From: a virus
Strand: one strand, 5' to 3'
Length of the DNA: 48,115 nucleotides
Virus record (IMG/VR): IMGVR_UViG_3300030104_005128
Coordinates: 1 to 48,115 of that record
Position numbers and translations under genes: made by a program. Of the stretch, positions 18,681-42,338 are shown piece by piece (within the stretch, counting starts at the first letter, position 1; each line of letters opens with the position of its first letter). The notes under the pieces are model-generated. The model searched no databases, was not told the DNA's origin, and saw only the letters and a list, made by a program, of their open reading frames with translations.

Positions 18681-20957
18681 ATGGCAGAACAACCTACGGG
18701 CGGTCTTGGGGAATACTTTGCTGGTCGGCACTATCCGACCGCTACTGCACTGGACCCCGAAGTTGAAGCCAATCTACGTGCTCGGTATTCAGAAGCTTTT
18801 TCTCTGCTAGCCAGAACAGAGAACCAATGGAAAACTGAAACCATTGAGAGCCATTCCAACATTCAAGTGGCTTTGATGAACTCATTTACCAAGTCGCTTC
18901 AGGCCGCTGCTTCATCGGCCATGGCTGGAGCCACAAGCCAACGCGCACAGGCTGACCTTCTTGGTTCATTGATGAAAACCTACAAGGGCTCCTTGGACAT
19001 GCTTGGGACTGTTCCAGATAGTGTGCTGAAGGGCTTCATAGCCTCAGACCAAAGCATGCAAGCAAGTTTTGAAGCAAGAAATAGAGACTTGATGCAAGAG
19101 TTGCGAAACCTAACCCCGGAGCAAGCACGGGAAAAGATTAGTCTAGAATATGGCTCAGTAATCAGAAACACCTTTGGTAATGCAAACGGTGGGGCAATGG
19201 GCCTGCTGGTCCGTGATGGCAACCCTGTTGAAGTGTACAATGCCAGGATTGATGCCAACCGAAGAGTAGGTAGGCAAGCTGATGATGGATACACCAAACT
19301 TTTGGCAATGTTGTCTCAATCAAAAGAACCCGGCCATATTAGCTTGTTTAATGAGCTTGCTAATGAAAGAGCCAAAGGGGACCATGGCTCAATAATTAGC
19401 AACGCTATTACGCAGGGCTTGCAGCGATCTCTCTGGACCCCAACAACTGGTGGCGCGAACGCATCACAAATTGCAGCAGCCGAATCTAAAAAGCTTCTTC
19501 AAGAGCAGATTGAGTACGCCAAGAGTTTTGGTGCGGGCATTCCTCCCCAGATGCTTGGGGAAGTCATGAGTCTTTACGATGCCAGCAGTGAGCTAGCTCT
19601 GAAGGGTCCAGAGGGATATGCTGCTGGGTTGGCAAAGATGCAGTCTCCAGCAGAGTTTGACGAAGCGCGTTCCATTCTTAGGAAGGGACTGGAAACCCTG
19701 GCCCCAACGGATGCCCTTACGGCAAGTGTTCGCAATTGGTTTGCTATGCCTGGGTTTAGTCGTTGGGCAGCCATCAATGGGTTTACTGACCCCATGGCGG
19801 CTACTCGGTACGCATCTCGACACCCAGATGAGTTTGTTGCGTTTACTCGTTTGAACGAATCTGACCCTGATATTGACTTGGGTGAGTTGCAAGGACGGAT
19901 GCAGCAGGAAGGTATCTACAGGACGAAGGGACCACTTAAAACAAAGTATCTTTCTAAGCCTATTGAGAGAGTCCTTGGCGTTGGGATTAAAGCCTCCACC
20001 GGTCGGGGTATCTTTCCTGGTGAAACCAGCATTGAAAAAGCCAAAGAAGGTATCGCTTATGCAACGGAAGAACTTGAAGCCCTCAAAAAGAAAGACCAGA
20101 CGACACCGGCTCAAGGTCAACAAGGACTGCCTGACGATGATCTTGAAAGGCTTCCAGAAGCAGGGGAAGATCCGACCGAAGTTACGCAAAGACCTGATGA
20201 CCCTGCCTTTGAAGACGATGAAGTAAGAGCTTCAGATAGGTTTTTGGCTTCCATCACGCCAAAAGCACGGGAGCGCCTTGAAGGTGAAGATGCGCTTACA
20301 GGAGCAGCCAGAAGGCGAGAATTGAAGCGCATCCTGCGTGCATCCAAGGGTGTAGTAAGGCGTCTTGAGGGCCAAGAAGCAGACACGGTGTACTTTAAAC
20401 CCGACGATATGAAGCCTTTGCCCGAGCCTACTCCTCAACCAGAGCCAGCGACAGAGCCAGAGCCGCGAAAGCGGATAGCATGGGGCTCATGGGCTACATC
20501 TTGGAGCAATCAAAACCCCGAAAAAGCTGAAGCTGCTTCTAATGCTGTAGAGAAATTGGTGTTTGGAGATAGTCTTAATAATGCAGAACTTGCTGTTATT
20601 AATAGCATTCCGCCCAACGCCATTCGCCTAACCGCAGCAGGAAAGATGAGGCTTAGCAAGCTGCTACAGGACCAAAAAGTACAAGAAGAAATAAGTAAGG
20701 CGATTAATACGTTCATGACTGAACAGGGTGGTAGAGATCCTGTGATCCTACCGACTGAGCCACGCGAGGAACCTGAGCCACTACCGGCGGGATTCCCAAC
20801 AGGGTCAGTTGATCCCCAGGTTATTAAAGAAATTGAGAGTAGATCAGACGTCCCGCCAACTGAAGGGACGATTGCTAATGGTTTAGCAAAGAAGGCAAAG
20901 AAGGAAAAGAAGGTTGAGCCACCAGCACTTGGCACCAACACTATGGGCGGACCCTAA
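18681..20957 (+). CDS. Internal virion/ejection protein, medium
   Basis: 758 residues. The N-terminal 450 residues are mostly helical (NIQVALMNSFTKSLQAAASSAM, SAEFDEARSILRKG-like segments), and the C-terminal 280 residues hold Pro/Glu-rich disordered linkers (PLPEPTPQPEPATEPEPRK). The start follows AGGAAG, and the stop overlaps the next start (TAATG). It is placed where T7-like phages carry gp15, a core protein that pairs with the largest ejection protein. No enzymatic motif is visible. Confidence 0.6.
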   Translation: MAEQPTGGLGEYFAGRHYPTATALDPEVEANLRARYSEAFSLLARTENQWKTETIESHSNIQVALMNSFTKSLQAAASSAMAGATSQRAQADLLGSLMKTYKGSLDMLGTVPDSVLKGFIASDQSMQASFEARNRDLMQELRNLTPEQAREKISLEYGSVIRNTFGNANGGAMGLLVRDGNPVEVYNARIDANRRVGRQADDGYTKLLAMLSQSKEPGHISLFNELANERAKGDHGSIISNAITQGLQRSLWTPTTGGANASQIAAAESKKLLQEQIEYAKSFGAGIPPQMLGEVMSLYDASSELALKGPEGYAAGLAKMQSPAEFDEARSILRKGLETLAPTDALTASVRNWFAMPGFSRWAAINGFTDPMAATRYASRHPDEFVAFTRLNESDPDIDLGELQGRMQQEGIYRTKGPLKTKYLSKPIERVLGVGIKASTGRGIFPGETSIEKAKEGIAYATEELEALKKKDQTTPAQGQQGLPDDDLERLPEAGEDPTEVTQRPDDPAFEDDEVRASDRFLASITPKARERLEGEDALTGAARRRELKRILRASKGVVRRLEGQEADTVYFKPDDMKPLPEPTPQPEPATEPEPRKRIAWGSWATSWSNQNPEKAEAASNAVEKLVFGDSLNNAELAVINSIPPNAIRLTAAGKMRLSKLLQDQKVQEEISKAINTFMTEQGGRDPVILPTEPREEPEPLPAGFPTGSVDPQVIKEIESRSDVPPTEGTIANGLAKKAKKEKKVEPPALGTNTMGGP

Positions 20958-23900
20958 TGATCAATGAAGACCCCCCTGAGACTGCTACAGAAGGCACTTC
21001 ACCTACTCCTGTTGGGGGCATGGCCCTTTCAACGGAGACTGGTGTTGCTACTGAGCAGTATGCTCAAAGGGATCTTGTTGAGGGCATTCCAGAACCAGTA
21101 GAAACAGACGACGCTATTGCTGATGCTGGCCCTATTGATACTGACTTGCGTGACCAAATTATTCGTGAAGCAGAGGCTTCACCTTATGAGCGCCTACCTG
21201 AGCCAGAAGAGGGCCCGGCTGCTCCTATTTCTGTGTGGGATCTTGACCATGATGCTGGTCGTATCTGGAGAAATGCAGATAAATCCCTGAACCCAACAGA
21301 AACTAAGTATGAAATTGCCCGTGGGTGGAGCCAGAGAAGCGACCTTGACCCCTCAGTTGTTGAAGAAGAACAAGAGCCTGGGATGTTTGATAGCATCTTT
21401 GGAATTCTTGAACCGGTTGATATACCAAGGCGGTCATCTTGGCAGGGTGGATACCGAATTGGAAGCATTCTGCCAGAGACTACTGAGCAAACTGGAGAAA
21501 AAACCATCTCCAGTACATTTGGGGATCTTGCTTCGTATGGTCTTGAAAAGTTCATGGTGTCTGCGCTTGGGCCAAGCGAGCACCCCACAATAGGTTCAAG
21601 TTCAGACTACGAAAGCAACATAGAACAGATAGGCACAAACCTATATAAAGCCATTTCTGAGGGCACCCCCTGGAAGCCTGGAGGGTTGCATAGAAAGGGT
21701 GTAGAAGAAGGCCCGCTGTTTTTGGATAGAGATTCCTTTTGGTATCAGTCCAACCCAACAGGGATGCATCTTCTTGATGCAACTGTTCCAAAGGAGTTGG
21801 CAGCAAAACTGTATGATTCAAGCGGCGCTTCTTTGATGACGCCGTATTGGTACACGTTGACCACCGATGCTGGCCGTCTTGCCCATGGTCTTGCTCTTGA
21901 GGTAGCCCTTGACCCTATGTGGTTTTTAGGTCCAGCAAAGGCAGCAGAGATTGTTTCTGTTGCTGGCAAAGCCATGCGAGCAAACTCCGTTGTTGTAGAG
22001 GCTGCTGGAGCGGCATCGCGAGCAGCTAAAGAACTCAACACTAAAAGACAGTGGCTACACGACGCAGTTCGATTTGTAACTGAAACCGGTGATTCTATTA
22101 AAGACATAAAGTCAGCGTTTCGTGTTGCTGGGGATCATGCAGCAAATAATGCGGACGTTGCTCGTCAAAAAGCTGCCGAACTAGTGGGCTTGTCAATCAA
22201 AGCAGACAGTCAAGACACCCTTGATGATGCTGTTGGTGGCCTTCAAAGGGTACTTACGGAAGAAAAGACACTACTGGAAGCCAGAGCAGCAGACTTTGGC
22301 ACATCTAAAGTCGCACAAAGACAAGTCAAAGCACATCAAAAGAAGATTGATGAAATACAGGCAGACCTTGACCTGCTTACTGCAAGCCCAAAAGCATCCA
22401 AAGTAAAGGCAACTCTTCTTAAGATGGCGAAGAGGCGCACCCTTAGCGCTAATGCTTGGGCGTCAGATGCAGAAGCAATCAGGCGGTTTTCTCGTATCGC
22501 AGATGCCGCTGAGTCATCCAAAGATGTTGGTAAGCTTGTTCATGAGAAGTCTGCAATCCCTATGTTTGGAACGTTTCATGTTCCGGGTTCCACCAAAACG
22601 GTAGATGTTCTCAGTAAGAGCCAGATTAAATCTGTTTCTAATCTTGTAAGCAAGGCAATGCCTGATGATGGTGTTCTTGTTGCTGCTATAGACAAGGCCA
22701 AAGCCTGGAAGAAGCCGCTTACAATCTCAGAAGTCCGCACAAAAGAAGCTAAAGCTATTGAGCAAGGTTTGTCTCCGTCAGCCCTGCTGAGTCCCGGTCA
22801 AAAGCTTTTGTTGGTTGCAGATGATGTTGGAATAAAGCCAGTCAAGCTGTACTCAAAGAAGACATGGGACTTTGTTGCGCAGACATTTGGCACTCGGCAT
22901 ATCCAGCCATTGGTTGCTTCTGTGTCTGCTGGTATGGAGATGGCTCACTACGGTGCCCGTGGCTCGTTTATGATGCAGCTTCCGTGGTCAAACAAGTTCT
23001 ACATGGAACTAAAGCGTGTAGAGCCTCAGACGTGGGCTAACTACCAAGAAGCAGTCACTAAGTACATGAACTCGCTTACTGCTGGTGAAGCGAATGTGAT
23101 GTCTGAAACACAATCACTGCTTCTTCGGGCGGTAAAGCTGCTCCCCAATCACAAACGTTGGGCAAAGGACCGAGAAGCAACGGTTTCCGCTGAAATCACC
23201 AGCATTAGTGGTCGCATTGCTGACCAGATGGCTGACGTTGAGCGCAGGGAGCTACACCAGCGCCTACTTAAGTTGGAGTTTGAAAAGCGAGAATTGGTTC
23301 GCATTCAGTCTAAAGACTATGGGCCAAACAATTTTTTGGATGATGCTGCTGACTACCATGAGCGTGGGGCGCGGGTTTTAGAACAAAACCCTTGGCTTTT
23401 GGGTATGTCGGAACGGGTTGGTGACTTGGTATCCAAGTATGCAGCAGAGGTTGGTGCAACAGAGTACGAGGTTGCTACTGCTCTTGTTGCCATTGCGCGC
23501 TTTGCAAAGGGTGACAAGCTGCGTGCAGAAGAGTTGGTGAACCAACTGCATAGAGCGCATGAATTTGTTCAGGATGCGCCGCACCAGCCGTTGGCTGAAG
23601 TGACAATGACAACCATCATTGAGGCCGCAACCAGCCAGGACTTAAACAAACTAAAGCTTTTTTCTCGAATAGGTTCAGAGAATGTTGCTGAAGTTGTTTA
23701 CAGAATGCACGCTAACATTCTTGATGGCAGGCCGTTTAATGATGAAACGGCTCAAGTCATTAGAAACATGCTTTCCGATGTTCTTGGCCAAGACCAGCGC
23801 CTTGTTGATGAGATACTGACCTATGCTGGCGGTGCGTTTGCACATGGGAATCCAGAAAAGGCCCTTTCTCTTCTTGCTATGGACATAACGGGTGACCTAA

Positions 23901-26900
23901 GCAAGCTTGCTGATGGCTTGTCAAAGGGAATGCTTCAGCCAAACGCAATCCCAACAGAGTTGTTTACTAAACGGGGAACTCATTTTCACGACGTAGACAC
24001 GCCAGAAGTTGTTGGGCCTTTGCGGCGTGGTCAAACAATGGAAGAGGCGATGTACGCCATTAAGGACATGCCTGTTGAGTACGGCGTGTTCTATGAAAAT
24101 GGAATGCAGATTGCTAGAGTAAAAGGAAAGCAGACTTCTATTGAAATGCCTGTTTCAAGGGACATTTCTGAAGCACATGAAGCTGGAAATATATGGTTTA
24201 TCCACAACCACCCATTTATTTTAAAAGACTTTATTTGGTCTTTTGATAAACCCACACGTAAGTTTATTAAAAAGCACGGTATTGAGTTTGATGACCTGCT
24301 TCCCCCGCTTCACCCGAGTCCGTCTGACTTTGCGGCTGCTTGCGCCAGGAACCAAAGCCACTACATTGCTGTTGGTCAGGACGGAACCTATTGGCTAATG
24401 AAGCGGCCTGATGATGGCTGGCCAATTAAACCCCCTGAAGGGGCGTCTGACATTGACAAGGCTCGTTGGGCAAATGAACAAACCAAAGCAATACGCACAC
24501 TTGTCGATGCTCAAGTAAAAACCTGGTCGAAAGAGTTTTCCGCTAAGCTTCTTCCTTCAATATCCGCAGAATTAAAAGGTATTGACGACCTGTTGTCCGC
24601 AAAGAAGCTGACACATAGTCAGTACAAAACTTTAAAGATTCAAATAATCAAACGGTGGGGTGAACATGCCGCAAAACAACTCTATGACGAATTCAACACC
24701 GCAATCCCAACAGCAATCAGCGCCCACATCGCCACAAAAAACCCCCAAGCAGGACGGTTTGTCTCTACAAGACATGCCATTGGCGGACGCCACCTTCGTA
24801 CAGGATTTGTTGACATCGACACTGCAAGAGGTGTTTACAGCGTTGAACGCGGCCTCACAAGAAAGCGAATCCTAAAAGCCGTTGAAGATAAAATAACGGA
24901 AACAAAGAGAAGAGTTCACAACCTGAAAGAGTTGGCGGAAACAACTGAGTTTGTCAGTCCATCCAAGGCCATAGAGGGCATTTCATCTGTCCTTTCAACA
25001 AAAATAAAGGTTCGTGCAGACGACTTTGTTAGCACTGTTAGTGATGCTTTTCGTTCGGCAGGGGCGGTAGGAGAAGATGCCGACAAAGTTTTCTTTCAAT
25101 TCATGGATATGTTCAACTCATGGGTACGCTCTAGTTACCCGAATGGAAAGCCCCTTCTTGATTCAAAGGGGAACAAGATTGCAATTAGTGCAAAGGATTG
25201 GTTGAACAATGCTCGAAAAGAACTGGCGCTTCCAGATGGGATTTCTGCAAATCAAGTAGAGGGCTGGCGACGTAAGTTTATCAACTTCACCAGTGCAGAG
25301 TCCCAAATGAGAGACTTTGCAGTTAATCTTGTTGCCGCTTTGGATAGGGCAAAAAAGGGTAAGGGCCAAAAGGCAGGGCTTTTTACGAGAAAAGAGACTC
25401 GCCACCAAGCCAGGGTTCTTCGTGAAGACAGGGTCGCTCGCGCACTTGACCCGATTATTAACAGTGCCACTGATGAAGCTGATGCAATTCAAAAACTAAA
25501 GAAGATTTTTGATAACGTTCTTGATGTTGGACAAGACCCTATAAGAAACCGTCTTAGTACGAGCATGTCAGAGCAAGTTGCTAAGACAATGATGAGTGGC
25601 GGTGATGTTGAGCGCGCTCTTTCTAAAGCAAGGGATAAAGGCAAAAGCCTTGTTGAATCTGAAATAAGCAAAATTCAAGAAGAGATTAGGTCGGTAACTC
25701 CACGTCTTGAAATCCCCAAAAAGAAGAAAGGAGAGACAGACATTGTTGCTTTGAAGGATTGGGAAAACTCTTTGTGGTCTGACTTCAAAGAAATGACCAA
25801 GGAAATGACTGAGGAACAAACCCTCATGGCTGCCTTCACAGCCCTTCGTGACGCACCGCGTGTAGCCACAGATAAAACGGTAGGGAAAGAGCTTCTAAGC
25901 CACCTTAATGGCCGATATAAGCAAGTGTTTGGAAGCAGGTTCGATGAAGTTCCACCAGAAATAAAGCCCCTTGTTGAGATGTTTGGTGACTTCATTAAAA
26001 AGTATGAGGATCTTTACGCTGAACATGGAATGGCCTTTGTTAAAGATCCTGAAGCCATGATGCGGTTTTGGGGCGTGATGGACTATGCGCCACACATGGC
26101 GGTTTCAAATGAAATCATTGCCAAGGGCGGGTATGCTGGAGCAGTTACAAACCGTCAGTCAGTAATTAATATTGGTTCAAGATTGGAAGACAGATTGTCT
26201 ACAAGCCTTGACCAGAAAAAGATGCGGTCAATTGCTGGCACCATCAAAGAAGTAAACCATGCTGTAAATTCGCCAGGAGTGACGTTTACGATTGACCCTG
26301 TTGGGTTGCTTGCTCGATATGTAAAAGCAAACCAGGCAATGAGCGCGCAAGAGTTTATGTTTGCTCTACTGCAAGGAAAGGTTCTTCGTCCATTTCGTTC
26401 TCGGTCAGTTTTTGACCATGAGCTTGACCTGCTTGCAGCAAGATACCGTATTGCTCCAGAAGTAGACGACATAGAGGCGGCTGTTCGTCAGCGTGCCGGT
26501 GAGTTTGAATTGGCCAGACTGGATGAACTAAAACAAAGTCCAGACATGGTATCTATGAGTCAAGTTGCTAGGGATCTTGGGTTTGTTCCACTGTTTGAAA
26601 GAGCAGTTAAATCCTTAAATATGGACCTTCTTGTTCAAGAGGGTGCAGATGCCTGGCGCGCAGCAGGTATTGATGTTGATGACGTAATTAAAGCTGTTCG
26701 TCAAAACAAAGACGAGTTTAGTCCCTTTGCCAAGTGGATTCATGAAGTCCCCGAGTATCAGCAAGGCGACAATATTTTAAGAATGATGTTGGCAATCAAG
26801 GCCGATGACTTTGCAAACGGTAGGGCTTTGTTTGACCCTGTTGCAATGCAAAAAAGCTTTAAGTCTGACCGGCTAGTGCGGCAGGCTTCGGTCATGAAGA

Positions 26901-28867
26901 AGCGCGGAAAAACAGATGAAGAAATCTACAACTCACTCATCAAGCATTTCTCTAAAACAGAGCTTGAAGCGTGGGATGATGTAGCTGAACAAATAAACAA
27001 ACGTTCTGCTGAACTGCAAGTTGGCGTCAAAGTAAATAATGGCGCATCGCTTCAAACGTTCTTTGACCAGGGACATGAGATGTGGAGGCTGTATGTCCCA
27101 CACGGTGTCGCCAGGTCCATGGATGATCTCTTTACTTTTTCTGAAAGAGCAACACAGGGTGCCGTTGGTACGGCTGTAAAGATTGGGCAGAAGCTAAACA
27201 CTTGGTGGAAGCTTCGCGTAACCGTCATTGCCGCTGCGTTCTCTGCTCGAAACCATTTGTCTAATAAGTTCAGTCAGATTTTAGACACAGACTTTGATGT
27301 TCTAATGAACCCAAAGTTGGCGTTGGACGTATCAAATCTGAACGTCCTTATTGGAATGAATGAGAAATACGGCAGCGTTAAGAATGCCGTTAAGTATCTA
27401 TCTGCACCAAAAAGTCAGTACGAAACAAAGCTACAGTACGCCAAGCGTCAAGCTGAAGCAGAGTATTTGGAGGTGCTGCGCATTTGGGGTGATGAGTTTG
27501 ACCTTGGTGATGGGGTCTTCCGAACCGCAGATGAGGCTATTGATGTTCTTAGAAAGCACAACGTTATCTCTGGTGCTTTTACTCAGTATGTAGATGTTGG
27601 TGAGTTTGAGAAGGGTCTTGCCGAAGTCATGTACTACGGCGGTATTAAAAGAAATACAGACAAGATTAAGAAGTATGCATCTGTAGCAGAAGACGCCTTG
27701 ATTTTTGCATCCCCAGTTTTGATGACTGGTGGGTTGTGGCCCATTGGCTTGCCAAAGGGGCTTGGTGCTGCGGTTTCTCGCAACGTAGAAAACCACGCCA
27801 GAATCGGAAGCTTCATTGCAAACGTCAAACGAACCAAGAATTTTGATGTTGCGTCTGAGCATGTAAACAGATTTTTGTTTAACTATGGTGACCTTACCGG
27901 TGCCCAGAAAGTATGGTGCAGGCTGTTCGTTCCATTCTTTACCTGGACCCAAAAGAACATGGCTCTACAGTTGAGGATGATGCAGGAGAAACCTGTGTTT
28001 TACTCTCAATTTAATAGAGTTCTGTTGACGCATGGTCCAGAGGTTGTTGAAGCCTACAATGCTGAACAGGCTGGTATCCCGTACATTCCTGCTCACCAAT
28101 CTAAACCAATCAATATTCGTACAAGAGAATCGCACACAAGAAACCTTGTACGGTTTCCTCTTCCTGGTCATAAGGGCGCATACATTGAAGGCTTTGGCCT
28201 TCCTCTTGAGCCGTTTGCTGAGACTTCAGGGCTCATCACAAGCTCATTCCAGCCATCTAAATGGCTTGGTAGGTATGATAAACGGAAGCCAAATCTAAGG
28301 CTTCTTGGTCAGATGCATTTCGTGTTGAAGATGATTGGTGAAGCGTCATTCCAGTACAACACTTTCTATGACAGGCCCATCAGTGAAATGACCAATGGGC
28401 GTCTGGTTGCACAGACAATTTCTGGGCTTAGGAAGGCACCCCTTGTCGGTGATTCAATGGCTGACACAATGTCAGATGTATTTGGCATCCACCATTATCA
28501 GCCGTGGAATAGCCGACTGGGTCAGTGGACTGATGACATTCAAGTTGGCTACATTCCAAACTATTTGTTTGCCCAACTTCCGTACTCACGGATTTTGCGA
28601 GATGCTTCGGCAGCTACAATGGCCTACAATTTCTCTTTGCTAAATACGTCACCACAAGACCTTGGTTTTGATGTAAAAAGAGAAAGTCCTATTAACGATG
28701 CCTGGAGGATCACTGACGCAATGACTGGTTTGCGAATCATTAGTGATGACCCGGAGTTCCGTAAAAAGATTTACCAATATCGTATAGATGATGCTCACTC
28801 AGAATACTTGAAACGTCATGGTGTTATCAGACAATATCAAGTAGACTACCCACGGAGAAAGCCCTAA
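20957..28867 (+). CDS. Giant internal virion (polyvalent-type) protein with JAB-like motif
   Basis: 2636 residues, the largest gene. Most of it is helical with coiled-coil stretches. Around residues 1020-1150 it contains a JAB/MPN-type metalloprotease signature: FIHNHPF near 1081-1087, followed by HPSPSDFAAA near 1117-1126, the His-x-His and Ser...Asp ligands of that family. The C-terminal 500 residues have two hydrophobic segments (about 2265-2290) and a conserved-looking structural tail. It takes the position of the T7 gp16-type ejection protein, but here the transglycosylase is a separate gene at 1713. JAB enzymes cut isopeptide or peptide bonds; activity here is untested. Confidence 0.7.
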   Translation: MINEDPPETATEGTSPTPVGGMALSTETGVATEQYAQRDLVEGIPEPVETDDAIADAGPIDTDLRDQIIREAEASPYERLPEPEEGPAAPISVWDLDHDAGRIWRNADKSLNPTETKYEIARGWSQRSDLDPSVVEEEQEPGMFDSIFGILEPVDIPRRSSWQGGYRIGSILPETTEQTGEKTISSTFGDLASYGLEKFMVSALGPSEHPTIGSSSDYESNIEQIGTNLYKAISEGTPWKPGGLHRKGVEEGPLFLDRDSFWYQSNPTGMHLLDATVPKELAAKLYDSSGASLMTPYWYTLTTDAGRLAHGLALEVALDPMWFLGPAKAAEIVSVAGKAMRANSVVVEAAGAASRAAKELNTKRQWLHDAVRFVTETGDSIKDIKSAFRVAGDHAANNADVARQKAAELVGLSIKADSQDTLDDAVGGLQRVLTEEKTLLEARAADFGTSKVAQRQVKAHQKKIDEIQADLDLLTASPKASKVKATLLKMAKRRTLSANAWASDAEAIRRFSRIADAAESSKDVGKLVHEKSAIPMFGTFHVPGSTKTVDVLSKSQIKSVSNLVSKAMPDDGVLVAAIDKAKAWKKPLTISEVRTKEAKAIEQGLSPSALLSPGQKLLLVADDVGIKPVKLYSKKTWDFVAQTFGTRHIQPLVASVSAGMEMAHYGARGSFMMQLPWSNKFYMELKRVEPQTWANYQEAVTKYMNSLTAGEANVMSETQSLLLRAVKLLPNHKRWAKDREATVSAEITSISGRIADQMADVERRELHQRLLKLEFEKRELVRIQSKDYGPNNFLDDAADYHERGARVLEQNPWLLGMSERVGDLVSKYAAEVGATEYEVATALVAIARFAKGDKLRAEELVNQLHRAHEFVQDAPHQPLAEVTMTTIIEAATSQDLNKLKLFSRIGSENVAEVVYRMHANILDGRPFNDETAQVIRNMLSDVLGQDQRLVDEILTYAGGAFAHGNPEKALSLLAMDITGDLSKLADGLSKGMLQPNAIPTELFTKRGTHFHDVDTPEVVGPLRRGQTMEEAMYAIKDMPVEYGVFYENGMQIARVKGKQTSIEMPVSRDISEAHEAGNIWFIHNHPFILKDFIWSFDKPTRKFIKKHGIEFDDLLPPLHPSPSDFAAACARNQSHYIAVGQDGTYWLMKRPDDGWPIKPPEGASDIDKARWANEQTKAIRTLVDAQVKTWSKEFSAKLLPSISAELKGIDDLLSAKKLTHSQYKTLKIQIIKRWGEHAAKQLYDEFNTAIPTAISAHIATKNPQAGRFVSTRHAIGGRHLRTGFVDIDTARGVYSVERGLTRKRILKAVEDKITETKRRVHNLKELAETTEFVSPSKAIEGISSVLSTKIKVRADDFVSTVSDAFRSAGAVGEDADKVFFQFMDMFNSWVRSSYPNGKPLLDSKGNKIAISAKDWLNNARKELALPDGISANQVEGWRRKFINFTSAESQMRDFAVNLVAALDRAKKGKGQKAGLFTRKETRHQARVLREDRVARALDPIINSATDEADAIQKLKKIFDNVLDVGQDPIRNRLSTSMSEQVAKTMMSGGDVERALSKARDKGKSLVESEISKIQEEIRSVTPRLEIPKKKKGETDIVALKDWENSLWSDFKEMTKEMTEEQTLMAAFTALRDAPRVATDKTVGKELLSHLNGRYKQVFGSRFDEVPPEIKPLVEMFGDFIKKYEDLYAEHGMAFVKDPEAMMRFWGVMDYAPHMAVSNEIIAKGGYAGAVTNRQSVINIGSRLEDRLSTSLDQKKMRSIAGTIKEVNHAVNSPGVTFTIDPVGLLARYVKANQAMSAQEFMFALLQGKVLRPFRSRSVFDHELDLLAARYRIAPEVDDIEAAVRQRAGEFELARLDELKQSPDMVSMSQVARDLGFVPLFERAVKSLNMDLLVQEGADAWRAAGIDVDDVIKAVRQNKDEFSPFAKWIHEVPEYQQGDNILRMMLAIKADDFANGRALFDPVAMQKSFKSDRLVRQASVMKKRGKTDEEIYNSLIKHFSKTELEAWDDVAEQINKRSAELQVGVKVNNGASLQTFFDQGHEMWRLYVPHGVARSMDDLFTFSERATQGAVGTAVKIGQKLNTWWKLRVTVIAAAFSARNHLSNKFSQILDTDFDVLMNPKLALDVSNLNVLIGMNEKYGSVKNAVKYLSAPKSQYETKLQYAKRQAEAEYLEVLRIWGDEFDLGDGVFRTADEAIDVLRKHNVISGAFTQYVDVGEFEKGLAEVMYYGGIKRNTDKIKKYASVAEDALIFASPVLMTGGLWPIGLPKGLGAAVSRNVENHARIGSFIANVKRTKNFDVASEHVNRFLFNYGDLTGAQKVWCRLFVPFFTWTQKNMALQLRMMQEKPVFYSQFNRVLLTHGPEVVEAYNAEQAGIPYIPAHQSKPINIRTRESHTRNLVRFPLPGHKGAYIEGFGLPLEPFAETSGLITSSFQPSKWLGRYDKRKPNLRLLGQMHFVLKMIGEASFQYNTFYDRPISEMTNGRLVAQTISGLRKAPLVGDSMADTMSDVFGIHHYQPWNSRLGQWTDDIQVGYIPNYLFAQLPYSRILRDASAATMAYNFSLLNTSPQDLGFDVKRESPINDAWRITDAMTGLRIISDDPEFRKKIYQYRIDDAHSEYLKRHGVIRQYQVDYPRRKP
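24666..24875 (+). CDS. Possible nested gene inside the giant ejection protein gene
   Basis: A 69-residue frame shifted +1 relative to the host gene, starting at ATG 24666 with GGTGGGG upstream. The product begins with a Gln/Ser/Thr/Pro-rich, disordered region (MPQNNSMTNSTPQSQQQS) and ends in a convincing amphipathic helix (FVQDLLTSTLQEVFTALNAA). Composition is unusually protein-like for a shadow frame, and the host frame uses more C-ending codons here than around it. It is offered as a candidate only; a chance open frame is the alternative. Confidence 0.22.
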   Translation: MPQNNSMTNSTPQSQQQSAPTSPQKTPKQDGLSLQDMPLADATFVQDLLTSTLQEVFTALNAASQESES

Positions 28868-36760: not shown

Positions 36761-36938
36761 ACTTAAGAATACCCCACCCAAGCCGTGACACCCAGGTGGG
36801 GCCAAATCTGCGGGCTATGTGCAAAGCATAGCCGCCATTAAGCCAATCCCAACGGCGACCTGCTCCACACCCAAGTAGATGTTCTAAAGAACATTAGGTT
36901 TAATTGGCCACTATGGCCAAGCAGTCAGTAACATAAAG
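36761..36938 (-). other. Non-coding interval with several stem-loops, next to tRNA-Asn
   Basis: No convincing gene. It holds GCTATG/CATAGC (36814-36819 and 36827-36832, extended by GCG/CGC), the palindrome ATGTTCTAAAGAACAT near 36880-36896, and TTGGCC/GGCCAA (36904-36909 and 36915-36920). The last lies 19 nt after the tRNA on minus and may protect or define its 3' end. A leader for the FmdB gene is also included here. Confidence 0.5.
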
Positions 36939-37011
36939 CTGGGGCGGGTGGACTCGAACCACCAACCTTCCGGGTAACAACCGGATGCGCTGCCAGTTGC
37001 GCTACACCCCA
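36939..37011 (-). tRNA. tRNA-Asn (GTT)
   Basis: A complete cloverleaf on minus: acceptor TGGGGTG/CGCCCCA, D arm GCGC...GCGC, anticodon arm TCCGG-TTGTTAC-CCGGA with anticodon GTT, variable AGGTT, and T arm GGTGG-TTCGAGT-CCACC. The discriminator is G73, correct for Asn. CCA is not encoded. Its first 10 nt overlap the stop region of the upstream RuvC-like gene. It reads AAC/AAT codons. Confidence 0.95.
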
Positions 37012-37535
37012 TTATCCAATGACACCTGCGGCAAGGTAGACAAGCCATACAAAGCTATGCAAGCTGCGTCTGCAAGCCCGTCATGGGGCTTTGTACGCTT
37101 TCCCGGTGAAAGGTCTAGGTCAGGTACTCTTTTGGAAGCAACGTACACTGAGCGCCCCTTACCATCGCCGGAAACGTCCTTGAGCACAGACTTGGCCCAT
37201 GTCTTTGGGGATACCTCAATGAATGGTATGCCCACAGCAGACAGGATTCCCTTCCACAAACCATAGCCAAGACCAGTGCTGAACGTAGAAGATACGCCCT
37301 GACCTGGTCGGGCCCATTGCTTTTCAAGAACAGCAAGCAAGATGTTGTTGTCATTGCCAAGAGAACGGAAGGCGTCAACCATTCTTGATTCGTTGTAGTC
37401 TCGCTTGCTTCCCTTACCAAGACGAAGCGTGAACTCTTTTGATGTCAAGTATGATGAGACTGCACTACCGTGATGATTGAGCACAACCAGTGCCCCATCT
37501 TTTCCTGGGTCAATGCCAATAACAACGTGGTTCAT
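37002..37535 (-). CDS. RuvC-like Holliday junction resolvase
   Basis: 177 residues with the RNase H-like resolvase signature: Asp9 in VIGIDPGKDGAL, Glu71 in LAVLEKQ, and Asp152/Asp156 in HDGLADAACIA. Such enzymes cut four-way DNA junctions made during recombination and prepare branched DNA for packaging. Length matches RuvC. ATGA overlap with the upstream gene; its stop codon lies within the tRNA-Asn gene, so mRNA and tRNA must be processed from one transcript or made separately. Confidence 0.88.
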   Translation of the reverse strand: MNHVVIGIDPGKDGALVVLNHHGSAVSSYLTSKEFTLRLGKGSKRDYNESRMVDAFRSLGNDNNILLAVLEKQWARPGQGVSSTFSTGLGYGLWKGILSAVGIPFIEVSPKTWAKSVLKDVSGDGKGRSVYVASKRVPDLDLSPGKRTKPHDGLADAACIALYGLSTLPQVSLDNGV

Positions 37536-37930
37536 AGGTATTCCGGTGGTCTAAACGCAAGCATATCAAAAGGATCTTTATGTTCTTTGTGCTGCAAATG
37601 GGTTGAGTCCAGTAGCAGCCACCACCAAGAGTCGTCTGTTATTCCAAGCCAGTCGTTTACGTGTGACCTTGTTGGTGCTTCAAGAAACTTCTTGCATGGT
37701 GACAATGATGGGTTTCCATTTGGAGCACCGAACCCACTAATCCAACCATAGAATGTGCTGGTCTTTACTGAGACACCGTACCCTTCAGCAAGGGCTTTGA
37801 TTGCACCAGCAACACCACCACATTCATTGGTCTTGTTTGCTAACAGGGCTGCCGCAATGGTTAGGGGCCGCTTTCTGGCGGACCCCTTTCCATTTGTTCG
37901 TTTACTTGAATGCTTCTTTTGGGATGCCAA
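37532..37930 (-). CDS. Hypothetical protein, possible HTH
   Basis: 132 residues from TTG 37930, chosen because AGGA lies 7 nt upstream on minus; longer GTG starts would overlap the previous gene deeply. Basic N-terminus (SQKKHSSKRTNGKGSARKRP), then a helix-turn-helix-like stretch (GVAGAIKALAEGYGVSVKTSTFYGWISG) and a Trp-rich DDSWWWLLLDSTH segment. DNA binding is plausible; not identified. It overlaps RuvC by 4 nt and the upstream gene by 29 nt. Confidence 0.6.
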   Translation of the reverse strand: MASQKKHSSKRTNGKGSARKRPLTIAAALLANKTNECGGVAGAIKALAEGYGVSVKTSTFYGWISGFGAPNGNPSLSPCKKFLEAPTRSHVNDWLGITDDSWWWLLLDSTHLQHKEHKDPFDMLAFRPPEYL

Positions 37931-38141
37931 AATCAGATCCTTCGATTGAACTCCTGTACCAAAGCATCCCCTCAGCACTGAGAAACAGAACACTCATGAC
38001 GTTGCCATAATTATCTACGGATACCATTGGTATACCGTCGTCTTCCAGCAAGGACAGTGCAAGTGAAACAGCGCCAGGGGTGTGTGGTACGAATCTTACG
38101 GGGGTTACAGTATCGCTATACTTAGAACCCATATTCATCAT
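37902..38141 (-). CDS. Small hypothetical protein downstream of SSB
   Basis: 79 residues starting at ATG 38141 or 38138 (AGGG lies 4 or 7 nt upstream on minus), overlapping the end of the SSB gene by 20 nt. A compact alpha/beta pattern (AVSLALSLLEDDGIPMVSVD, VMSVLFLSAEGMLWY) is seen, with no recognised family. The larger open frame reaching to 38342 is not supported, since it runs antisense in codon character through the SSB tail. Confidence 0.6.
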   Translation of the reverse strand: MMNMGSKYSDTVTPVRFVPHTPGAVSLALSLLEDDGIPMVSVDNYGNVMSVLFLSAEGMLWYRSSIEGSDFGIPKEAFK

Positions 38142-38562
38142 TATACCCTGAATATGCGCCTCCTTCTGGCTTAGCATCTCCTGTAGCGTTTGATGGTGGG
38201 TACTGCTGTGGTGCTGATCCGCCTGAATGTCCAGCGCCGTTATTAGTTGGTGCAGCTTGAGCGCCATCTTGTTTTCCATCAAGTGTCGCAACAGAGAAAG
38301 CACTAATGCTTGTAAAGAAAACTTTCTGACCATTCTTTTCATAGCTTGAGTGTTTTACTGAGCCCTGGACAATCACCATATCACCTTCACGAAGCTGGCT
38401 TGCAGCCTCCTTGTTCTTGCCAAAGACTTCTACTGTATGTGTAGTGTTGAAACGCCGTCCGTCGTAGTGTGTTCGCCACGTAACCATCCTAAAGCTAATG
38501 GCTGCGCCACGCTCTTGAGGGTCAGTCTTCAACACACCAATAAGATTTACCTGATTAAGCAT
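38122..38562 (-). CDS. ssb: Single-stranded DNA-binding protein
   Basis: 146 residues from ATG 38562 (MLNQVNLIGVL), preceded by GGAG 7 nt upstream on minus; the longer frame is an artefact. An OB fold at about 1-95 with typical strands (VNLIGVLKTDP, ISFRMVTWR, HTVEVFGK, GDMVIVQGSV, FTSISAFSV), then a Gly/Gln/Pro-rich disordered linker and an acidic-aromatic tip (YNDEYGF) like SSB tails that recruit partners. It protects ssDNA in replication and recombination. It overlaps the Cas4-like gene by 8 nt. Confidence 0.88.
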   Translation of the reverse strand: MLNQVNLIGVLKTDPQERGAAISFRMVTWRTHYDGRRFNTTHTVEVFGKNKEAASQLREGDMVIVQGSVKHSSYEKNGQKVFFTSISAFSVATLDGKQDGAQAAPTNNGAGHSGGSAPQQYPPSNATGDAKPEGGAYSGYNDEYGF

Positions 38563-39562
38563 CGTCATTCTCCATAATGTAGATTTTAATTTTGTTCGTT
38601 TTTTGTAGCCACCTGCTCTCTTCTGCTCGTTCTTCTCCCCCTGGGAAACATGTTTTCCAATACCTGCAATAGTCACATGGGAAGGACAGCCTTCCCTTCT
38701 TATCTGGCCCATAAGGGCGCTCAATATCTTCCGGTGATTTAGATAGAATCACTCGACGGAACTTGTCTTTGATTGCTTGAACCGCAGCTTCATCGTACTT
38801 TATCCACTGCCCAACGATTGGAAACGCTGGCCACCAGTTGCCGTCATCGTCAATGACTGCTTCCTTTGCCGTCGTAGCTTTTCCATAGGCAATCAAGTAC
38901 GTATAGCCATAGCCCTTTGATGCCATGTATGACTGCACCTGCTTATAGTACGAATCACTAGGGTCAAGGCCGCTTTTGCGGAACTTCTTAAACGCATAGT
39001 CCGACATGGACTTTACTTCTAAGATGGCTGAACCCCACTCTGGTGGCTCGTTACTTTCAGAGTGTGTCTTCTTAATGGGAATCGCCATTGAACCATCAGG
39101 ATGACCAGGGACATTGGCTACACGACCATCCTCAATAGGAACCTGTAGTGAAACCTCTTCCTGTTCAGCACCAATGAACATCAAGGCTGGCCTGTGTGCC
39201 CTGCTTTCATTTTCAAATGCTTCCGCAATAGCAGAAACAATGAACGCTTCAGTCACGTCACCAATAGTAAAAGCAATCTTCGATGATGCATCTATTGGGT
39301 ATCCATTCTCAACATAGTGGTGGTATGTATATGCAAGCGCACGCTCACATCCCCCGCTGCTGGAGAGTCTTAATGAACCTGTAGATGTTCGCTGCTCAGA
39401 TAGCTGACGTAGAATGGACTCTCCCATTGCTGTAGCTGAATGTTTACTGCTCTTTAGTTTTGATGTTTTGGTAAGCCTTTCGCGTACCATCTTGGCTATG
39501 TCTGGAAGCCACGCTTCTGTGCCATCGTTAAACGATGTCATTGTCCAATGCATTTCTTTCAT
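38555..39562 (-). CDS. Cas4/RecB-like PD-(D/E)XK nuclease with four-cysteine cluster
   Basis: 335 residues (start could be 39562 or 39553). Cys72 in GGCERALAY pairs with Cys296, Cys299 and Cys305 in CDYCRYWKTC, the iron-sulphur ligand layout of Cas4/AddB-type nucleases. Nuclease residues: GHPDG (153-157), LEVKS (181-185) and YYKQVQSYM (205-213). Such phage exonucleases recess DNA ends for annealing, which fits the Rad52-type protein two genes away. The 3' end overlaps SSB. It is not evidence of a CRISPR system by itself. Confidence 0.85.
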   Translation of the reverse strand: MKEMHWTMTSFNDGTEAWLPDIAKMVRERLTKTSKLKSSKHSATAMGESILRQLSEQRTSTGSLRLSSSGGCERALAYTYHHYVENGYPIDASSKIAFTIGDVTEAFIVSAIAEAFENESRAHRPALMFIGAEQEEVSLQVPIEDGRVANVPGHPDGSMAIPIKKTHSESNEPPEWGSAILEVKSMSDYAFKKFRKSGLDPSDSYYKQVQSYMASKGYGYTYLIAYGKATTAKEAVIDDDGNWWPAFPIVGQWIKYDEAAVQAIKDKFRRVILSKSPEDIERPYGPDKKGRLSFPCDYCRYWKTCFPGGEERAEESRWLQKTNKIKIYIMENDDA

Positions 39563-39869
39563 CCTCGTCTAGAGATTTTATGTGCTCAACAAGCACTTCA
39601 AGGTTTAAGTCTTTGTCCGACTGCCCCATTACAAGTCGTCCAATTACGGTGACCAATTCACCAGTTTTACACTTATCAATTAAGATTTTTCCAGGTGTGC
39701 CAAGGGCGATAAGCGGAACCCTTAGATCATATTTGTGATACTTCTCGCTTGGGTTGTAGAGTCTTGCCCTAACCCTCATGCCAGATGATTTAGTTCTACC
39801 GTTGTAGGCTGCGTTTTCTATGTACCCAATGCACACAACAGTAGATGGAAACCTGTGCCGAAAAGACAT
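39528..39869 (-). CDS. OB-fold, SSB-like protein (second copy type)
   Basis: 113 residues. An SSB-like order of strands is visible: VVCIGYIENAAYNGRTKSSG, MRVRARLYNP, YDLRVPLIALG, TGELVTVIGRLVMG, LNLEVLVEHIKSL, with a GELVTVIGRL core typical of SSB strand 4. The tail is acidic. It lies between the annealing protein and the nuclease. Either a second SSB or a recombination mediator; identity is unsure. The frame overlaps the nuclease start by 35 nt. Confidence 0.55.
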   Translation of the reverse strand: MSFRHRFPSTVVCIGYIENAAYNGRTKSSGMRVRARLYNPSEKYHKYDLRVPLIALGTPGKILIDKCKTGELVTVIGRLVMGQSDKDLNLEVLVEHIKSLDEDERNALDNDIV

Positions 39870-39871
39870 GA

Positions 39872-40654
39872 CTATTCCTCATTAGATGGTTCATCCCCAC
39901 CAATAAACAGTTCATACTTCGCAAGCATTTCTCCAAGCTTTCCAGCTTCATGCCATGAGAGAAGTCTTTGAGACAGAATCTTAAGACGTTCATCATCCAA
40001 CTTTGTGGGGTCAATATCTTTAAGACCTCGCTTAAAGAATCGAGAGTCCTTGCTGATGGCTGTTGCAGTCTCAAGAACAAACGGAATGAACTCACGCTTT
40101 ACTTTGTTCTCTCTTAGAACAAAACGAATACGTTCAAGCCTCCGCTCTCTTGGGTCGTGCTTCTGAAACAAGTCTGCTTGTAGCTGCTGTATTGACGGAG
40201 CAACACCATACTTGGTCTTCTCTCCACGCTTTGTGCATACAACAAGGTACTCTGGTGGGCAGTCTGGACGTGCTTCTGAAAGCTGAACCTTTGTTTCACC
40301 AAGCTCATATAGATGCCGACCCACGCCCCACTTCACAGCGGCACGTTTAAACGCATCTGACAAGCCACCCTTGTCACCCTCGAACGCAGTATCACCAGCC
40401 CCATCAGACTTAGAAACCCATGTTCCACCAACACAAATAGATAGTGTACAAATGTTCTTACCTTTGGATGTTTCAATGTATGCGTCTTGCCAGTTGTGTG
40501 ACCCAACTGCCGAGTCCAATCTATCCATGACTGCTCTTGCATCTACATAGCAAAGCACTCTGGCCCAGTTTCCAAACGATCTATCAATCCTCCAGTAAAC
40601 ATCCTTGTCATTAAATGGACGCCGTAGTTCATCACAAGCTTGTTCCCAAGTCAT
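39872..40654 (-). CDS. Rad52-type single-strand annealing protein (Sak-like)
   Basis: 260 residues. The N-terminal 120 residues carry the Rad52/22 double-strand-break repair signature: NWARVLCYVDARAVMDRLD, then VSKSDGAGDT and GGLSDAFKRAAVKWGVGRHLY (96-116). These proteins form rings that anneal complementary ssDNA, supplying phage recombination with no need for RecA. The C-terminal half is helical and charged. ATG 40654 has GGAG upstream on minus and overlaps the HTH gene by 23 nt. Confidence 0.9.
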   Translation of the reverse strand: MTWEQACDELRRPFNDKDVYWRIDRSFGNWARVLCYVDARAVMDRLDSAVGSHNWQDAYIETSKGKNICTLSICVGGTWVSKSDGAGDTAFEGDKGGLSDAFKRAAVKWGVGRHLYELGETKVQLSEARPDCPPEYLVVCTKRGEKTKYGVAPSIQQLQADLFQKHDPRERRLERIRFVLRENKVKREFIPFVLETATAISKDSRFFKRGLKDIDPTKLDDERLKILSQRLLSWHEAGKLGEMLAKYELFIGGDEPSNEE

Positions 40655-40919
40655 TTGTTTCTCCTGCTTTTAGGTTCGCAACCAGTGTTTTTATGTCACC
40701 GCAGAATGCGGCAAGCGATACTTGTTGTGGCTCAATGAGCCTACGTATCAGTTTAAAGGTGGGGTTTCGTCCCCTTGAAATAATGTCTCTTGTGTGTCGT
40801 GGGTTTACACCTCCCTGCTCATGCAGTTTTTTGATTGTTATTCCTTTTGCTTTTGCCACCAAGTGCAGCCTGAATCTGAACTGAAGTGACGAAAGGTCTG
40901 ATGTTTTTCTCTTCCCCAT
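40632..40919 (-). CDS. Small HTH DNA-binding protein
   Basis: 95 residues. A helix-turn-helix of XRE-like type at about 27-61 (ITIKKLHEQGGVNPRHTRDIISRGRNPTFKLIRRL). It lies between DnaB and the annealing gene and may regulate the module or assist helicase loading. The N-terminus is basic. It is unrelated in sequence to the XRE protein at 42424 beyond the motif class. Confidence 0.65.
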   Translation of the reverse strand: MGKRKTSDLSSLQFRFRLHLVAKAKGITIKKLHEQGGVNPRHTRDIISRGRNPTFKLIRRLIEPQQVSLAAFCGDIKTLVANLKAGETNDLGTSL

Positions 40920-40925
40920 GGTTCC

Positions 40926-42338
40926 TCACAGAACTGCGCCACCCCAATCGGGCTCGTTAAAGCCATCATCACAAGAGTCATAGACCCTTTGAAGAGTAAG
41001 CCTTGCCCACAATCGAATGTCTTTCTTTGAGTGGTCCCTGCTCTTGAGTGACATCAACTCAAATGGCTGGAACATGTCGGCAAGTTCCGTGTTCTCATAG
41101 TCTTGGTTGTTTGACTTCTTTGGTTTTTTGTATTGGAACTGTCGATACAAACCGAATGCAAGCGCCGCATCATGAAGAGGCTTGTCTGAATCTCTGAAGT
41201 GATGGGACTGTGGCACACCACGACGACCATTAATCACAGACTCCTCTGTTCCACGATTAAGCTGGAGCAATGCAATCACAGCCACGTTCTCTTGCTTTGC
41301 TATACGCCGAAGCACTTCGCTAATCTCGTCCACCTCCCATGATCTATTCCTGTTCTTTGGAAGGTTTGATGGCGGCCTGATTAACTGAAGATAGTCTACC
41401 CAAATCACCTTGCAGTCATGCTTTCTAACAAGCCTACGTATTGAACTTTCAACTGCGTCTGCTGTAGATGATGCATCGTCTACAAAGATAGGCTCACCCA
41501 TCAACGAGTCTGCCGCCTCCATCAGCCTGTCAGTTTTGTCACCATCCTTTTCATGGATGCTACTTACCTGAACCCCAGCAACAATGGACGCCATACGGTC
41601 TACAAGCTTCCACCTTGGCATTTCTATGGACAAGATACCTTGGGCTATGCCCGACTGAGCAGCACGCAACACAGCGGAAACCAGGAACATTGTCTTACCA
41701 ATCTCTGGCCGACCACCGATGATCGTCATGTAGCCCCGTGGCCAACCTACATAATGATCATCAAAGGTTTTAAATCCTGTAGGAACATACTCAACATCAT
41801 CACCATCAAGAATGCTACGCCAGGCAGACTTACGTTCACTTGCTGCTTCTTGTAGAGAAAGAATCCCTTGGATTGAATCAATCTCTCCGCACACACCAAG
41901 CACGCTTGACTCTGCGCTGCGGATAATATTCTCTGGTTCTTCCTCACTGTCTTCAAGGTTTGCAAGTATCTGCTTAGCAGCAAGCTTTAGTTCCCTAAGC
42001 CTATGACACGAAGCAATACGGCTGGCGTATTGGCGAAGCATCTGGTCACTAATGATCGTTTCATCACCAAGCCTGCTTACATAGTCAATACCACCAAACT
42101 TCTTACAGCCCTGTACTCCAGAGGTTTCAATAAGAGAAACTAAATCTGCTGGTTTATTCTTAGCTATTCTAGAGAGTACCCAAGAGTACAATTTCTGGTG
42201 TTCTAAATTAGAGAAATGTTGTTCTCTTAAGAGATCATCTACTAGTACTAGTGATTCTCCACTAGAGACTAGTATTGTTCCTAGTACTAGCCGTTCTGTT
42301 TGAACGGGTCGTAGGTGAGCAAACTTATCTTGTGTCAC
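40926..42338 (-). CDS. dnaB: Replicative DNA helicase, DnaB-like
   Basis: 470 residues, GTG start at 42338 with GGAGG 7 nt upstream on minus. N-terminal DnaB domain (1-100), linker, then the RecA-like motor: Walker A GGRPEIGKT (208-216), Glu239 in SIEM, Walker B VIWVDYLQL (311-319), and Gln359 in LLQLNR. It unwinds the fork for phage replication. The C-terminal 100 residues are variable. First gene of the minus module; the first 40 codons contain a strikingly palindrome-rich tract (42223-42290). Confidence 0.93.
   Translation of the reverse strand: MTQDKFAHLRPVQTERLVLGTILVSSGESLVLVDDLLREQHFSNLEHQKLYSWVLSRIAKNKPADLVSLIETSGVQGCKKFGGIDYVSRLGDETIISDQMLRQYASRIASCHRLRELKLAAKQILANLEDSEEEPENIIRSAESSVLGVCGEIDSIQGILSLQEAASERKSAWRSILDGDDVEYVPTGFKTFDDHYVGWPRGYMTIIGGRPEIGKTMFLVSAVLRAAQSGIAQGILSIEMPRWKLVDRMASIVAGVQVSSIHEKDGDKTDRLMEAADSLMGEPIFVDDASSTADAVESSIRRLVRKHDCKVIWVDYLQLIRPPSNLPKNRNRSWEVDEISEVLRRIAKQENVAVIALLQLNRGTEESVINGRRGVPQSHHFRDSDKPLHDAALAFGLYRQFQYKKPKKSNNQDYENTELADMFQPFELMSLKSRDHSKKDIRLWARLTLQRVYDSCDDGFNEPDWGGAVL
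42223..42290. repeat. Palindrome/CTAG-dense tract in the 5' end of dnaB
   Basis: Contains perfect palindromes TCTCTTAAGAGA (42223-42234), ACTAGTACTAGT (42241-42252) and CTAGTACTAG (42281-42290), and six CTAG in 49 bp. It is encoded with rare-looking CTA leucine codons (L17, L19, L23, L30, L32 of DnaB). A DNA-level role such as an origin or an operator cluster is suggested. Confidence 0.55.

Follow-up and report, generated by a model that had tools for sequence, protein, structure and literature searches.

The giant gene and its genomic context

The window, that is, the whole 48,115-base virus record analysed here, comes from an uncultured bacterial virus, and a single gene on its plus strand encodes a giant protein of 2636 aa. 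This gene is located within one long plus strand block together with the terminase, portal-like (phrog_332/156) and head genes. Relatives were gathered by a TerL scan of viral contigs (62-80% TerL identity) and by a second scan reaching down to about 50%, and homologous giants are present in the relatives G001, G002, G005, G007, G008, G009, G013 and G018. The giant is a very large phage protein in which a conserved scaffold is combined with enzyme-like modules that differ between relatives, as in polyvalent and giant internal virion proteins. The label of ejection protein is based on the gene order and on the link between a module of the sister G001 and internal virion proteins (see below), which together make the virion delivery proposed in an earlier, sequence-only reading plausible; the giant protein is probably carried within the head and leaves it together with the DNA. 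The features discussed here are as follows.

20957..28867, plus strand: giant ORF, 2636 aa, uninterrupted; probable internal virion (ejection) protein
23942..24841, plus strand: variable slot, residues about 996-1295; JAMM domain in the window, HExxH zincin-like module in G001
23993..24481, plus strand: predicted JAMM/MPN-type domain, residues 1013-1175; from alignment A2, models, fold searches and the RadC-profile scan
24077..24079, plus strand: E1041, candidate general-base Glu; invariant in 5/5, and placed directly ahead of the first core strand by both models
24203..24214, plus strand: HNHP, residues 1083-1086, with H1083 and H1085 as candidate zinc ligands; invariant in 5/5, with a core strand ending there in both models
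24215..24316, plus strand: insertion that separates SPSD from HNHP, with two helices predicted; from alignment and models
24317..24328, plus strand: SPSD, residues 1121-1124, with S1121 as candidate oxyanion residue and D1124 as candidate zinc ligand; S and D invariant in 5/5, at a helix N-terminus in both models

Elsewhere in the window, a tRNA-Asn (gtt) gene (36938-37011, minus strand) is found between the late plus strand block and the minus strand replication genes. The latter form a replication/recombination block (37002-42338, minus strand), which includes a Holliday junction resolvase (37002-37535), a Cas4-type exonuclease, an Erf-like annealing protein and a DnaB-like helicase.

A conserved JAMM/MPN signature

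The sequence-only reading had pointed to FIHNHPF and HPSPSDFAAA as JAB/MPN ligand motifs, and both are found where it placed them, in frame in the giant ORF. The complete JAMM/MPN signature can be recognised around them, that is, a Glu which that reading had not named (E1041, in the context VEYGVF) upstream of HNHP, the HxHP motif (H[S/T/N]HP) and SxxD, in this order. When the giant protein was shuffled 20,000 times, the pattern E..H[NST]HP..SxxD occurred in 0.1% of the shuffles and HNHP in 0.25%. The spacing is unusual. HxHP and SxxD are usually about 7-10 residues apart, and the gap of about 36 residues in the window group is due to an insertion common to the group, which is predicted to form two helices.

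Alignment A2 contains the domains of all the JAMM-carrying giants known, namely those of the window, G002, G005, G007 and G008. The window domain shares only 24-27% identity with the four homologous domains, and 18 of about 162 columns are invariant, among which are the E, H, N, H, P, S and D of the signature. The chance that the five named positions are all invariant is about 1e-5, which is a rough figure, the motif having drawn attention beforehand. Thus the candidate metal ligands are preserved in all homologues with the domain (5/5), as the JAB/MPN assignment would have it.

Predicted fold and family searches

The structure of the domain was predicted with AlphaFold for the window and for its G002 homologue. 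The window model (five sequences) is of low confidence, with a mean pLDDT of 58 and best blocks of 70-80, and the G002 model has a mean pLDDT of 76 and a core of about 80-91. For the window model, the top Foldseek match in the PDB is JAMM1 of Pyrococcus furiosus (probability 0.99, E 5e-3), and JAMM1 leads again for the G002 model (probability 0.98), with zero PDB matches under E 0.001 for either model. In the VIA comparison of the window model, JAMM1 (Z 6.3) is tied with the Prp8 MPN domain (6.7) in a list made up mostly of JAMM/MPN proteins (Z 5-6.7), and the G002 model matches JAMM1 with Z 7.9 (rmsd 4.2, 106 residues), followed by BubCD (7.5), AF2198 (6.5), the AMSH-like Sst2 (6.2) and RadC (5.6); it should be noted that a VIA Z of 6-8 is the range of common arrangements, and that a Z under 8, taken by itself, may reflect no more than such an arrangement. 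In both models, the Glu immediately precedes the first core strand, HNHP closes a core strand, and the S and D open the helix that follows. The argument for a JAMM fold is therefore that fold, motif and position agree, and the JAB core that structure prediction was expected to reveal is present in the two predicted models, although the E-values and Z-scores are moderate.

Deaminases, which have a related fold, are interspersed among the VIA matches of the G002 model (Z 5-7). Deaminases use a Cys-based zinc motif. A cytidine deaminase was rejected as an identity for the domain, since no such motif was seen and the JAMM set is conserved in full.

In the BFVD library of viral structures, the domain has stronger Foldseek matches than in the PDB, with a probability of 1.0 and E-values from 4e-5 to 1e-3, including RadC proteins and minor capsid proteins. 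The best of them, A0A1X9HW54_1, is a 1304-residue fragment of a large viral protein, which is perhaps another giant with a JAB domain. Along the alignment of the giants, the RadC/JAB profile (hhalign) reaches 63-78% only at the positions that include the JAMM domain, whereas values do not exceed 1.2% in the rest of the giant and 2.6% in the reversed control; the match is short, comprising 20-27 columns around HNHP.

At the level of sequence families, the domain is without a recognised family in the Pfam, NCBIfam and PADLOC searches of the domain and the giant, and PHROGs gave nothing convincing for either, one homologue weakly matching the unannotated phrog_7416 (E 0.0023). The Pfam Prok-JAB model (PF14464) had zero matches in the window or the 8 relatives, and hmmscan was likewise silent, while 11 of 14 control genomes were matched, 7 of them over the cut-off. 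No true relative among isolated phages was found by tblastn with the giant or with the domain of one homologue, and PDB sequence searches with the window segment and the domain profile returned no JAMM protein, the top matches being designed or unrelated proteins. Scanning genome contigs with the C-terminal and domain alignments gave zero matches, and scanning viral contigs with the domain alone gave only three carriers, all already known. The A2 profile also had zero matches in 11 further records, most of which are without the region or have another module there; the five rows of A2 are too divergent for pattern scans. Finally, a tape measure identity (PF20155) is unsupported, with E 0.019, well below the cut-off.

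A slot with different modules in related phages

The closest relative by TerL is G001 (80% identical). When its giant was compared with that of the window by BLASTP, residues 16-995 (39%) and 1296-2636 (51%) matched, with no match between them. The giant of G001 is without HxHP, and its slot holds HELIH followed by N..E. By tblastn (down to 3e-15), homologous segments are found in a DarB-like protein and in the internal virion proteins of a number of phages, Autographiviridae among them, and no family name was given to the module by Pfam. In a six-sequence alignment of the module, the H, E, H, N and the downstream E are invariant, a pattern that is expected of HExxH + E zincins, and we consider the module zincin-like by this pattern.

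G001 is sister to the window in the tree of the C-terminal region (100/100), and the N-terminal tree agrees (91/98). Since the four other JAMM carriers (G002, G005, G007 and G008) form the sister clade, the simplest history would be that the zincin-like module took the place of the JAMM domain in the line leading to G001; two gains of the JAMM domain may be the alternative.

The giants of more distant relatives have still other contents in the slot. In G009 (L063), whose giant has 3400 aa, there is an insertion of about 1300 residues with HELWH (about 990-2320), for which a search against isolated phages found no relatives, and which is a candidate zincin by the HExxH motif. The slots of G013 and G018 have no metal motif. 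By eye, the slot of G013 (L062; residues about 975-1450) includes segments that resemble winged-helix DNA-binding domains (TELSARLGRSEKQIQKSI..., LMQAMTRLHEGGYIEQIPGG...). The unrelated modules at the same site in the window and in G001 suggest that peptidases for delivery at infection can be interchanged in the slot.

Comparison with known systems

The domain shares with the JAMM/MPN metallopeptidases (P. furiosus JAMM1, AMSH/Sst2, AF2198 and BubCD) the same E, HxHP and SxxD set and the same order of core strands and helices, but differs from them in the gap with its two-helix insertion, in having no detectable sequence family and in being embedded in a phage protein of 2636 aa. RadC-type JAB domains have the same HNHP...PS..D motif, with a profile match over the short stretch given above, and large proteins that include them are likewise known from phages and mobile elements (PMC5512222). 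However, the domain described here has an insertion, its place is taken by a zincin-like module in the sister, and its fold score is lower for RadC than for JAMM1. Siphophage minor capsid proteins with a JAB-like domain, found in BFVD, provide a similar predicted fold in an annotated virion component, but they are of about 290-630 aa, belong to other phages and are without the giant scaffold; they were compared by predicted fold. The zincin (HExxH) modules of podophage internal virion and polyvalent proteins, such as N4 vRNAP, P1 DdrB and DarB-like proteins, are likewise metallopeptidase-like modules in giant packaged proteins. A homologue of this podophage type is found in the same slot of G001, although its motif is unrelated to the JAMM motif of the window.

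Polyvalent proteins with JAB (RadC) domains and ejected proteins with zincins are thus already known (PMC5512222), as is an HExxH domain in the N4 virion RNA polymerase (PMC12633501). In the open-licence literature, our search found no JAMM domain in the middle of a giant podophage-like protein that is exchanged, in one and the same position, for a zincin-like module between sister phages.

Proposed function and its alternatives

Based on the above, residues 1013-1175 probably form a divergent metallopeptidase of predicted JAMM/MPN fold that is active. The main reading, to which we assign a probability of roughly 0.6, is an active JAMM peptidase in a swappable slot of the giant protein, with the target left open; the weights expressed below for particular targets are alternatives inside this statement and are not to be added to its figure. 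In the mechanism that we infer, from the zinc and the peptidase activity to packaging and the time and target of action, and for a fold that is itself predicted, the exchangeable JAMM module would sit with a conserved scaffold region on either side. If it works as known JAMM enzymes do, H1083, H1085 and D1124 would be the zinc ligands, while E1041 would serve as the general base and S1121 would stabilise the intermediate. The shared function of the slot would be proteolysis, because the sister has in the same place an unrelated zincin-like module of the podophage internal-virion-protein kind. The peptidase would most likely act after ejection, its target being either a host protein or the giant itself. 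For zincins embedded in polyvalent proteins, Iyer and colleagues proposed that they process the protein which carries them or, after injection, act on host proteins (PMC5512222).

Between these two targets, a host protein is placed slightly above self-processing, since some relatives carry a substitute for the module and others do without. Nevertheless, in a possible reading that we hold tentatively, the JAMM domain cuts the giant, or a virion protein that neighbours it, either within the head or once ejection has taken place. The central position between two conserved scaffold regions and the replacement by a zincin-like module in G001 are consistent with it, and the same role was proposed for the embedded peptidases of P1 DdrB and N4 vRNAP-like polyvalent proteins; however, N4 vRNAP is packaged uncleaved (PMC5512222), and the scaffold can do without such a metal motif in G018 and G013. 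The sequence-only reading had first suggested host ubiquitin-like proteins as a target; in this more specific role, the domain would strip off ubiquitin-like modifiers that stem from bacterial defence through Bil/Bub-type or CBASS conjugation, which appears unlikely. Bacterial ubiquitin-like conjugation strengthens anti-phage defence (PMC10097602), and BubCD and JAMM1, the latter solved with the ubiquitin-like SAMP2, are among the best fold matches. Yet the pointer to this target is that fold neighbours have such substrates, and fold matches by themselves reveal no substrate; moreover, the zincin-like module that replaces the domain has no known link to such modifiers. It is similarly improbable, and offered as a conjecture, that the slot is an arms-race cargo bay of an injected giant, in which related phages swap unrelated metallopeptidases (JAMM, HExxH types, or none) so that each destroys a different defence protein of the host; the JAMM version would then take ubiquitin-like modifiers off proteins of the host or the virion.

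The domain could also process nucleic acids or nucleotides, as RadC-like and toxin JABs have been argued to do (PMC5512222, PMC3482391). The RadC profile does match, RadC being the one sequence-profile neighbour tried, and the polyvalent proteins of phages and mobile elements can include RadC domains (PMC5512222). However, the match is confined to a short stretch around HNHP, the PDB fold matches favour JAMM1 over RadC, and the same slot of the sister G001 holds a zincin-like peptidase module. The metallopeptidase look of both exchanged modules, as judged from their sequences, favours proteolysis over a nucleic-acid role, which we regard as doubtful. Inactive MPN domains are common (Prp8, Rpn8, EMC8/9), some of them are among the fold matches, and the domain might accordingly be a JAB-like structural element devoid of activity. 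Inactive MPN domains usually lose their ligands. In the five giants every ligand position is invariant despite the large divergence, so an inactive domain seems very unlikely.

Implications

The giant ejected proteins of podophages often have metallopeptidase-like modules, for which the question is self-processing versus host attack. For the active JAMM peptidase proposed here, the presence of two unrelated metallopeptidase types in the same slot of sister phages is a natural exchange, which argues that the slot is for proteolysis. The JAMM domain in the slot would also provide a link, still speculative, to bacterial ubiquitin-like defence. The window and G001 thus constitute a clean pair for testing what the metallopeptidase-like modules of such proteins do.
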